The notes under the pieces were generated by a model. That model was not told the DNA's origin. It did not search any database and saw nothing but the letters and a program-made list of their open reading frames with translations. Positions 55,490-58,240 of a stretch of DNA of 64,000 nucleotides are shown here, piece by piece (position 1 is the first letter of the stretch; every line of letters begins with the position of its first letter). This stretch comes from Alcaligenaceae bacterium (GTDB lineage Bacteria > Pseudomonadota > Gammaproteobacteria > Burkholderiales > Burkholderiaceae_B), in assembly GCA_029263795.1 (NCBI GenBank), contig JAJUFI010000001.1, positions 1-64,000 on the forward strand, read 5' to 3'. The translations under genes and the position numbers were made by a program.

Positions 55490-56662
55490 TCAGCTGCGCA
55501 TACCTTCCAGCAGCTGCCGGGCCAGCTGATTTCGCAGGGGAGGGAGTAGGTCCATCGCCAGAAGTGCCGCGCCGCCAGCGTGTTCCAATAGCGGGATGCG
55601 TGTGGAAAAAACGCGTGGAAGAAGATCGGTGATGGCGATGGTGAGCCAGCGATCGAAACGACGGCGCCCGGTGAATTCGGTGCAATGGGGGTCCGGATCG
55701 GAATCGGGGCGCAGCAGCCACGGGGAAAGGGCCTGGGCGAGCTGTGCGACGTCGCGCAGGCCCAGATTCAAACCCTGGCCGGCCACGGGATGCAGGGTCT
55801 GGGCCGCATTACCGATGGCGATGCAGCGCAAGTTGATGCGTGACGGCCCGGCGTACAGTGCCAGGGGGAACACGGATACCTTGGTGACACTCTGAAGAGC
55901 GCCCAGACGGTCGCCGAATTGTTCCTGGAGGCGCCGGTCGAATTCTTCCCGAGGCAGGCCGCGCAATGTCTCGGACTGTTCCGGGCTGCAGCACCACACG
56001 ACACTGTAGATGTCGGAAGCCTGTGGGTGGGGCAGGGCGGCCAGCGGGCCGTTGCGTGTAAACCGCTCGTATGCCCAGCCAGGCTGGGGCCGGCTTGCAC
56101 GGACATTGGTCAATACTGCGTTCTGCCCATACTGGCGTTCCACACCCGATGGGCGGGCCCCATCTGACTGCACCGCGAGCCGGGCGCTGACCACGCCGCC
56201 ATCGTAGCGACATTCGACGTGATGCCCGCTCAAGTGGGGCAATGCCCGCCCCGTCAGGCGCGTGACCCCGCTGGTTTCAAGCGCCTGGTGCAGGGTTCCG
56301 AGGAGGTCGTCGTACCGCACCACATTGCCCAGCCGGGGAACGCCCAGATCGCGGTGGTCGATGACGACGCGCCCGAGACGGCTGCGCTGGGAAACATGAA
56401 CCTGGCGGATTTCCGCCGCCTGCCCGGGCCAGGCTCCCAGAGTTTCGAGAAATACACGGCTGCCATGGTTGAGCGCCAGACAACGGGGGTCTACCCCCGC
56501 AGACGCAGCCATGCCCGTACCGGGAGGAGGCGCAGCCGGACGTACGGGGCCGAGCAGCGCAATTCGGGCGGGATCAAGCGCTTTGCGCGCCAGAGCAAGT
56601 GCCAGTGCACACCCGGCCGGACCGGCTCCGAGTATGACGACGTCGAAATCCGTTGGTTTCAT
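55490..56662 (-). CDS. UbiH/UbiF/COQ6-family FAD-dependent monooxygenase
   Basis: FDVVILGAGPAGCALALALARKAL, GNAAQTLHPVAGQGLNLGLRDVAQLA. Confidence 0.9.
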   Translation of the reverse strand: MKPTDFDVVILGAGPAGCALALALARKALDPARIALLGPVRPAAPPPGTGMAASAGVDPRCLALNHGSRVFLETLGAWPGQAAEIRQVHVSQRSRLGRVVIDHRDLGVPRLGNVVRYDDLLGTLHQALETSGVTRLTGRALPHLSGHHVECRYDGGVVSARLAVQSDGARPSGVERQYGQNAVLTNVRASRPQPGWAYERFTRNGPLAALPHPQASDIYSVVWCCSPEQSETLRGLPREEFDRRLQEQFGDRLGALQSVTKVSVFPLALYAGPSRINLRCIAIGNAAQTLHPVAGQGLNLGLRDVAQLAQALSPWLLRPDSDPDPHCTEFTGRRRFDRWLTIAITDLLPRVFSTRIPLLEHAGGAALLAMDLLPPLRNQLARQLLEGMRS

Positions 56663-56731
56663 GGGCCCTATTTTACGCATATGTGGGAGCTCGCATGCGC
56701 GGAAAAAGACATCAGAAAGGCCCGTAAAGCT

Positions 56732-56760
56732 TTGTCTGACAAGTGAATTTCTGATAGAAT
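56732..56760 (+). promoter_or_regulatory. Sigma70-type promoter of a long-leader gene
   Basis: TTGTCT (56732-56737) - 17 bp - TAGAAT (56755-56760). Confidence 0.65.
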
Positions 56761-56766
56761 GGCGGG

Positions 56767-57003
56767 CGTTGAAACTTTATGGAGCTGTGTGGTGAATATC
56801 GACCCCGGCGAAAGTTGTAGTCGACACTTTGTCGACGTCTCTCGTTCCAGGCACTAGAGCCGCACCGCTCGCCCGTGCCCTGGAACCAGGGCGCGGAGCA
56901 TCCTGCATGTTCGCATGCTGACTCCCCGCCGTACCGAAAACCTGGCTTGTGTCTGCGACACGAGCTCACTCCCTGGTGTGTTTGCCGGGGGCAGGAGTCC
57001 CGT
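56767..57003 (+). ncRNA. Candidate structured 5' leader / cis-regulatory RNA (~237 nt)
   Basis: Multiple hairpins plus alternative SD-pairing segments between the promoter and the ATG at 57004 (see finding). Confidence 0.6.
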
Positions 57004-57339
57004 ATGCGTTTGTTTCATCTGTTTTTGCGCCGTGCTGGCGTACAGGCCACTTCTGCGCGCGCCCCGCGTAACACTTCCCGTCTGACTGTCGTTTGTCCAC
57101 GGGAACAATTGCCGTCCGTGCGCCGTCAAATCTATCGCGACCTCCATGCCGATGGCATCCAGATCGCTCAAGTGAGCGTGGATTACGGCCAACCCGCCGG
57201 CATGGTTCGGGCCAGCATCACCGTCGATTGCCCGCCACCCCTGCGACCGGAACTGATGTCGAGGGCGAAGCGGCTGCAGGCTCACCCGGGCATCCACGAA
57301 ATTCATTGGGGAAGTGCCCGGCGGCATGCTTTAAACTAA
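57004..57339 (+). CDS. Small cytosolic protein resembling the MgtC/SapB C-terminal (ACT-like) domain
   Basis: SD AGGAG (56993-56997); RLTVVCPREQLPSVRRQIYRDLHADGIQIAQVSVDYG...AHPGIHEIHW. Confidence 0.6.
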   Translation: MRLFHLFLRRAGVQATSARAPRNTSRLTVVCPREQLPSVRRQIYRDLHADGIQIAQVSVDYGQPAGMVRASITVDCPPPLRPELMSRAKRLQAHPGIHEIHWGSARRHALN

Positions 57340-57379
57340 GGGTGGCTCTCATGTTGGCTGCCTGAACGGACTACCGCCC

Positions 57380-58240
57380 ATGCACTTGCTCGAATGGCTC
57401 ATCCCCTGGGAATTTTCCCCATTATTCCTGTTCTTCTTCCTGGGGGGGGCCTGGCTGTTCCAGCGTGGTATGCGGGTCCATAAGGTAAGCGGCTGGCGCA
57501 AGGCACTCTTCTGGTCGGGCATGGTCATCCTCTATCTGGCCATGCACACGCGGCTCGACTATTACGCCGAGCGGATGTTCTTCATTCACCGCCTGCAGCA
57601 CTTGGTGCTGCACCATCTCGGGCCCCTGCTAATAATGGGTGCCTATCCCGGCCAGGTGCTTCGCGCAGGTTTGCCCATGCGCTGGCGCATCCGCTTGCAG
57701 GAATTCCGCCGCAGCAGCCTGGGCCTGGGCATTGAGGCGGTACTCACCAATCGCATCCTCGTTCCCTTTCTCTTCGTGATTCTGGTCGTGGGCTTTCTGC
57801 ACCCGACCGTCCAGTTCTATTCCATGCTCGACTGGCGGCTTTACCGGCTGATGAACTGGTCGGTGGTAATCAGTGGCTTCATGTACTGGAATTTGATTCT
57901 CGACCGCCGCCCAAGTCCGCCGGCGGTTCTCTCGCCCGGTGGGCGGGTGTTCTGTCCCTTGGTGACCATGGTGCCGCAGATTATCGCCGGAGCCGTCATC
58001 ACCTTTTCCGAATACGACCTCTATCCCATCTTCGATCTCTGTGGTCGCGCCATTCCGGGCATGACGGCCATTGCCGACCAGGCCATAGGCGGGCTCACAA
58101 TGTGGGTGCTTGCAGGTTTCGTGGAAGTGTTTGGGGTGCTCTACGCATTATCCACGGTCATGAGGCTGTCCGAGAAAAATCGGCTTCCACACAAACGCAA
58201 GGGCCAAGCCGCCGCCCCTGGTGTTCCGGTGGCATCATGA
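57380..58240 (+). CDS. CtaG-family cytochrome c oxidase assembly factor-like membrane protein
   Basis: MHTRLDYYAERMFFIHRLQHLVLHHLGPLLIMGAYPG caa3_CtaG pattern. Confidence 0.85.
   Translation: MHLLEWLIPWEFSPLFLFFFLGGAWLFQRGMRVHKVSGWRKALFWSGMVILYLAMHTRLDYYAERMFFIHRLQHLVLHHLGPLLIMGAYPGQVLRAGLPMRWRIRLQEFRRSSLGLGIEAVLTNRILVPFLFVILVVGFLHPTVQFYSMLDWRLYRLMNWSVVISGFMYWNLILDRRPSPPAVLSPGGRVFCPLVTMVPQIIAGAVITFSEYDLYPIFDLCGRAIPGMTAIADQAIGGLTMWVLAGFVEVFGVLYALSTVMRLSEKNRLPHKRKGQAAAPGVPVAS

Follow-up and report, generated by a model that had tools for sequence, protein, structure and literature searches.

The 237 bases (56767-57003) in front of a gene for a 111-aa protein constitute a genuine regulatory leader, which is conserved, apparently has not been described before and most likely belongs with the leader-peptide attenuators of Mg2+ genes and not with the riboswitches. 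A conserved peptide ORF is tied to two competing hairpins, an arrangement that recurs before magnesium-uptake genes across the Burkholderiales, and the element is therefore most likely to act as a translation-sensing switch for magnesium shortage. We consider it probable that the leader is a ribosome-controlled attenuator, which would set the expression of Mg2+-homeostasis genes via the progress of the ribosome in the leader ORF. Sequence evolution supports the leader ORF with its reading frame, the internal hairpin termed stem 0, two competing helices, the position of the stop codon inside or beside the first arm of one of these, and the association with Mg2+ genes.

The analysed window is a 64,000-nucleotide stretch of an Alcaligenaceae genome whose closest relatives found are Alcaligenaceae and Yanghanlia caeni. 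Its features are compiled in the table. The sigma-70-type promoter already proposed in the first-pass annotation stands alone as a promoter-like site, and the -35 TTG as well as a TANAAT-like -10 hexamer are kept in homologous leaders of congeners and of other genera, with a predicted transcription start near 56767. The 111-aa protein scores 22.2 bits against Pfam MgtC_SapB_C, which is under the curated cutoff of 27. Its AlphaFold model (mean pLDDT 75) retrieves with Foldseek the MgtC C-terminal domains 2lqj and 7qa5 as the top two PDB matches (E 2.3e-5 and 4.0e-5), and these best matches come from the MgtC proteins of Mycobacterium tuberculosis and Pseudomonas aeruginosa. Judged from the model, the fold is MgtC_C-like, in agreement with the initial assignment. 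The following CtaG-family gene points in the same direction and probably belongs to the same operon; the gene order is similar in many relatives. In the window the operon runs on into CtaG and not into a Mg2+ transporter, which counts against the proposed attenuator of Mg2+ genes. No MgtA match at E <= 1e-40 was found in the window's own genome, so the MgtC_C-like/CtaG operon is apparently the leader's sole target there.

Table. Features of the leader and its downstream genes in the window.
Feature	Position	Strand	Basis
Sigma-70-type promoter TTGTCT-17-TAGAAT	56732..56760	+	sole promoter-like site in 56500-57500
Leader-ORF Shine-Dalgarno GGAG, 7 nt before GTG	56781..56784	+	sequence; conserved motif in homologues
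Leader ORF, 21 codons and stop, GTG start, MNIDPGESCSRHFVDVSRSRH	56792..56857	+	open frame in homologues
Stem 0, hairpin GTCGAC-ACTTT-GTCGAC within leader ORF	56820..56836	+	covariation
Region 1 (GTTCCAGGCAC), last codons before leader-ORF stop, partner of region 2	56844..56854	+	swap tests
Region 2 (CCGTGCCCTGGAAC), shared arm pairing with region 1 or region 3	56873..56886	+	pairing, covariation, swap tests
Region 3 (CCAGGGCGCGG), competes with region 1 for region 2	56886..56896	+	covariation, swap tests
Hairpin GCATG-TTCG-CATGC	56905..56918	+	sequence; by eye in homologues
C-rich, G-poor segment GACTCCCCGCC	56920..56930	+	C>G skew; SD pairing in minimum-free-energy fold
Hairpin GCTTGTGTC-TGC-GACACGAGC, upstream of main SD	56945..56965	+	sequence, fold
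Main-gene Shine-Dalgarno AGGAG	56993..56997	+	sequence
Predicted stand-alone MgtC C-terminal domain with ACT-like fold, 111 aa	57004..57339	+	Pfam score, AlphaFold model, Foldseek
Next gene, CtaG/Caa3_CtaG family	57380..58240	+	Pfam Caa3_CtaG 157.6 bits

The leader ORF, which the first-pass annotation had overlooked together with one of the two competing hairpins (56873-56883/56886-56896), takes up much of the leader and ends with the stop codon TAG at 56857. Among the homologues, GTG is the start codon in 83 of 84 leaders and ATG in the remaining one, and in most non-redundant homologues (similarity ratio threshold 0.85) an AGGAG- or TGGAG-type motif is found at matching spacing. An upstream ATG at 56779 was dismissed as the start of the window's ORF because it is missing in other genera. 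The distance from the start codon to stem 0 amounts to 28, 25, 22, 19 or 16 nt, all equal to 1 modulo 3, in 83/83 leaders. Within the commonest length class codons 4 and 7 read GAN in all 37 distinct sequences, while the third base of codon 7 varies (C in 18, T in 10, A in 8 and G in 1), which indicates that the acidic residue is kept and not the nucleotide sequence. At least two acidic residues within codons 2-9 are present in 33 of the 34 non-redundant leader ORFs of the first set. The window's peptide begins with MNIDPGES and displays the early acidic/proline motif N-x-D-P-G-E/D; the peptides MNSDPGDSCSRSRIGFFITRRV and MNTDSGDSSRSCIDVAA, each followed by a stop codon, are examples from homologues. 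The conservation of frame, start codon and acidic codons thus points to a translated leader ORF.

In the leader peptides of the MgtA-type loci (MDSxSSRSxI[DG]...), codons 2-9 mostly encode a single acidic residue, and in two cases they encode none, so an acidic sensor is not universal in these leaders. A segment S-[SC]-R-S-x-I-[DG] recurs even in leader ORFs in which acidic residues are scarce or absent. Upstream of an mgtA match at another locus (L175), outside the scored set, a shorter leader ORF encoding MDPDPSRSCP before its stop codon is followed by another ORF and then by mgtA; its peptide strikingly resembles the EPDP motif reported for MgtL.

The window leader folds better than its shuffled counterparts (-107.8 kcal/mol, z -4.71), and the stems initially listed for it (56820-56836, 56844-56886, 56905-56918 and 56945-56965) are all present. 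The original view of a long and structured leader that regulates in cis, is conserved and contains mutually exclusive pairings is supported. In the aligned homologous leaders, four of the six pairs of stem 0 change on both sides with 97.5% of cells paired, which is repeated in a second alignment, and seven of the ten pairs of hairpin 2:3 change on both sides with 95.1% of cells paired. For both elements together, 96% of cells pair and 11/16 pairs change on both sides in 74 aligned leaders, counts that are biased in favour of the model, to which the alignment had been fitted; none of 500 shuffles was as good on the main measures. Since arm 2 pairs with region 1 and also with region 3, hairpin 2:3 is incompatible with the 56844-56886 hairpin, that is, 1:2 and 2:3 exclude each other, 2:3 being the more strongly conserved.

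Helix 1:2 is part of neither covariance model and was therefore tested by swapping arms between sequences. In the first set (n=34) a leader's own arms pair better than swapped ones for both 1:2 (z -6.6) and 2:3 (z -9.3), with z -0.4 for the control pairing 1:3. The MgtA-type set, which comprises 21 leaders from the second model, mostly located before mgtA and including four (L192, L194, L195, L204) also used in training that model, yields z -7.2 for 1:2, z -6.6 for 2:3 and +0.7 for the control. Swap and shuffle tests correct for relatedness only in part, although the result for the 1:3 control speaks against an artefact of a general kind. Arm 1 of helix 1:2 reaches into the leader-ORF stop in 43 of 55 leaders, and in all 55 the two are no more than 12 nt apart, which places arm 1, as judged by position, within the footprint of a terminating ribosome in every case. 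The leader sequences thus combine mutually exclusive helices with an overlap of one of them with the end of the leader ORF, as is characteristic of an attenuator.

A further pairing of region 3 with a fourth segment (GGCGCGGAG with CTCCCCGCC in the window) is attractive by eye and would complete a four-arm switch; it was rejected, with no co-evolution in the swap tests (z +1.2 and +0.5). Of the hairpins further downstream, GCATG-TTCG-CATGC is replaced in other genera by hairpins of the GAATAC..GTATTC type, and compensatory versions of the one preceding the main SD are found in congeners, both as seen by eye. Members of the MgtA group (L192, L195, L199 and other mgtA-type loci) harbor an extra hairpin in the first 60 nt after region 3, with a recurrent GGTTCTCGG-like loop and subsequent CTACTTCCCAT-like segment.

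When the first covariance model, consisting of stem 0 and hairpin 2:3, was run against 271 genomes of the family, 132 of them (25/43 genera) yielded the leader, as did 9 of 300 genomes of the order. A second model was run on 400 genomes of the order and picked up related leaders in 36 of these, representing 27 of 159 genera. In many lineages Mg2+ genes lie downstream; the genes behind the leaders encode stand-alone MgtC C-terminal domains, MgtA, MgtE and full-length MgtC, and in one genome labelled Achromobacter-like (G010) the leader, an MgtC_C-like gene and mgtA follow each other in that order; genus labels such as Achromobacter-like and Bordetella-like were assigned from contigs that match. 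Among second-model matches outside the training set, an MgtA-type P-type ATPase is the next gene in eleven fetched loci (L193, L196, L197, L199, L200, L202, L203, L206, L209, L211 and L213), and the one tested, from L200, is a magnesium-translocating ATPase by NCBIfam. An mgtA match is also located downstream of the related leader in L207.

Other neighbours were observed as well. An OprB-type porin is the next gene behind the related leader in L205 and L212, the latter with an mgtA match further downstream, and an ABC-transporter permease (BPD_transp_1), which is not known to act on Mg2+, in L198, L201 and L208. The permease loci count against the proposed control of Mg2+ genes, but these permeases possibly represent an undescribed Mg2+-linked uptake system. 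In L012 (263-424) a Mn2+ riboswitch of the yybP-ykoY family (RF00080, 73 bits) is situated about 1.1 kb upstream of the leader of the Mg gene. Two weak matches of the first model (L156, L157) possess neither such a leader ORF nor a Mg2+ gene and were discarded, and the second-model match L210 looks like chance. A class-wide scan outside the order returned only three matches of 23-25 bits, in unrelated contexts, which were taken as chance.

No Rfam family matched the window leader or the leaders of 14 related loci at the gathering score, and the best sub-threshold matches of the window leader at an E-value threshold reached 13.5 bits or less; the family is thus absent from Rfam. No report of such a leader in Burkholderiales was found in the open-licence literature.

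The first-pass annotation had proposed the leader as a candidate translational on/off riboswitch, in which the RNA itself would bind a ligand such as Mg2+, Mn2+ or a polyamine and thereby expose or mask the main SD, the latter pairing exclusively with either 56968-56976 or 56921-56928. These pairings exist on paper. In favour of the riboswitch, the main SD segment is paired in the minimum-free-energy fold, where its partner is GACTCCCC near 56920, the downstream region co-evolves weakly with the SD (z -2.5 in the swap test) and ACTCCC is kept within the Pusillimonas-like group. The proposed flip of the SD is not supported, as its predicted accessibility in the window stays near 0.02 in every state, and partition-function folding of three states reveals no difference (means 0.12, 0.13 and 0.14; p 0.2). 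The alternative pairings with evolutionary support are instead 1:2 and 2:3 around the leader-ORF stop. Furthermore, an aptamer-like invariant core is missing across the lineages, which conserve a coding frame and drifting helices instead, and a match to Rfam is absent. A ligand-binding riboswitch thus appears very improbable.

With respect to the output, no terminator-like hairpin of the intrinsic type was found. The segment GACTCCCCGCC is a candidate for Rho loading and possibly an anti-SD. After region 3, C exceeds G in 34/34 non-redundant leaders and in 20 of 21 MgtA-type leaders, as counted within this family of leaders only; this skew fits Rho loading, as in CruR of Bordetella (PMC9426467), composition alone being weak evidence.

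In the proposed attenuator, a ribosome at the leader-ORF stop would cover region 1, leaving region 2 to pair with region 3. A ribosome halting or falling off in the first codons would leave region 1 free, so that 1:2 could form and region 3 would be released. At ample Mg2+ the ORF would be read to its stop, resulting in 2:3 and low expression, while in Mg2+ shortage drop-off at the early acidic codons (N-x-D-P-G-E/D) would lead to 1:2 and expression of the operon. A ribosome positioned on codons 5-6 would have its leading edge at the base of stem 0. The output may be termination by Rho within the C-rich sequence that follows region 3, to which SD sequestration may add in the window's clade. 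Mg2+ as the signal and drop-off at acidic codons as the sensor are inferred, and there are precedents: MgtL contains an EPDP motif and acts through ribosome drop-off and Rho (PMC11282234), and in MgtQ Asp2 and Glu5 destabilise ribosomes (PMC8092293). The early acidic/proline residues match this ribosome-destabilising feature, and drop-off sensing is proposed for the window leader, although it does not fit all relatives.

Among the closest known systems is mgtL, the leader of mgtA in Escherichia coli and Salmonella, likewise a short ORF with early acidic and proline residues followed by a Mg2+ transporter gene, where full translation versus drop-off selects the RNA conformation and termination is Rho-dependent (PMC11282234); an analogous scheme may apply here. 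Unlike mgtL, the Burkholderiales leader carries the N-x-D-P-G-E/D or MDSxSSR motif as well as a hairpin inside the ORF, and its arm 1 is located at the stop codon. No Rfam relation to mgtL was found, nor was a sequence relation to mgtL, mgtP or mgtQ detected. In the leader of Salmonella mgtCBR with its tandem attenuators mgtP/mgtM, two stems likewise exclude each other, and the left arm of one of them is made up of the last codons of a leader ORF (PMC3641672); that leader is located upstream of mgtC, contains two ORFs with runs of proline codons and senses ATP, whereas a single ORF without such runs is present here. In mgtQ, located between mgtC and mgtB of Salmonella, early Asp and Glu residues in a very short ORF destabilise ribosomes and set alternative stems ahead of a Mg2+ transporter gene (PMC8092293). 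Contrary to the promoter-proximal leader described here, for which RBS release is not predicted, mgtQ has 8 codons, is intergenic and directly releases the RBS. Within the same family, CruR of Bordetella is a leader ORF that responds to copper and involves Rho-dependent termination and a C>G bubble; its product, a DUF2946 protein, is larger and contains CXXC and RAPP motifs, and competing hairpins of the window's type are not described for it there (PMC9426467).

The sense of the switch is argued from physiology alone and could be reversed, since in Salmonella mgtP, which also employs alternative stems, a ribosome over arm 1 means ON (PMC3641672). With such wiring, published for mgtQ as well (PMC8092293), a ribosome on arm 1 would favour 2:3 and thereby switch the operon on. 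By logic only, this is opposed by the combination of acidic codons 4 and 7 with arm 1 at the last codons, whereby drop-off in shortage favours 1:2, and by the expectation that Mg2+ uptake genes are ON in shortage; we regard the reversed sense as possible but rather unlikely. It is more doubtful still that an attenuator of this kind would respond to something other than Mg2+ itself, slow decoding of the leader ORF (for example owing to tRNA charging, to CGA as an arginine codon within stem 0 or to translation stress in general) controlling the Mg2+ genes indirectly. Salmonella mgtM and mgtP do read ATP and proline (PMC3641672), and the serine/arginine segment mentioned above persists even where acidic residues are few or absent. 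The overlapping stem 0 also accounts for these serine and arginine codons, however, a single-codon run as in classic amino-acid attenuators is lacking, and in the window's clade codons 4 and 7 stay acidic while their third base is free to vary.

On balance we lean towards an order-wide Burkholderiales family of Mg2+-responsive leader peptides, independent of mgtL and mgtP, which would sense shortage via ribosome drop-off and unite mgtA, mgtE, mgtC and the genes for stand-alone MgtC C-terminal domains. If this is true, a second large order of bacteria would sense Mg2+ through translation, by means of a peptide and hairpins of different design, which would allow ribosome destabilisation to be studied comparatively as a sensing principle. 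The leader would also serve as a genome-wide marker of the Mg2+ regulon in Burkholderiales, including relatives of Bordetella and Achromobacter, and would offer a functional lead for the stand-alone MgtC C-terminal-domain proteins.
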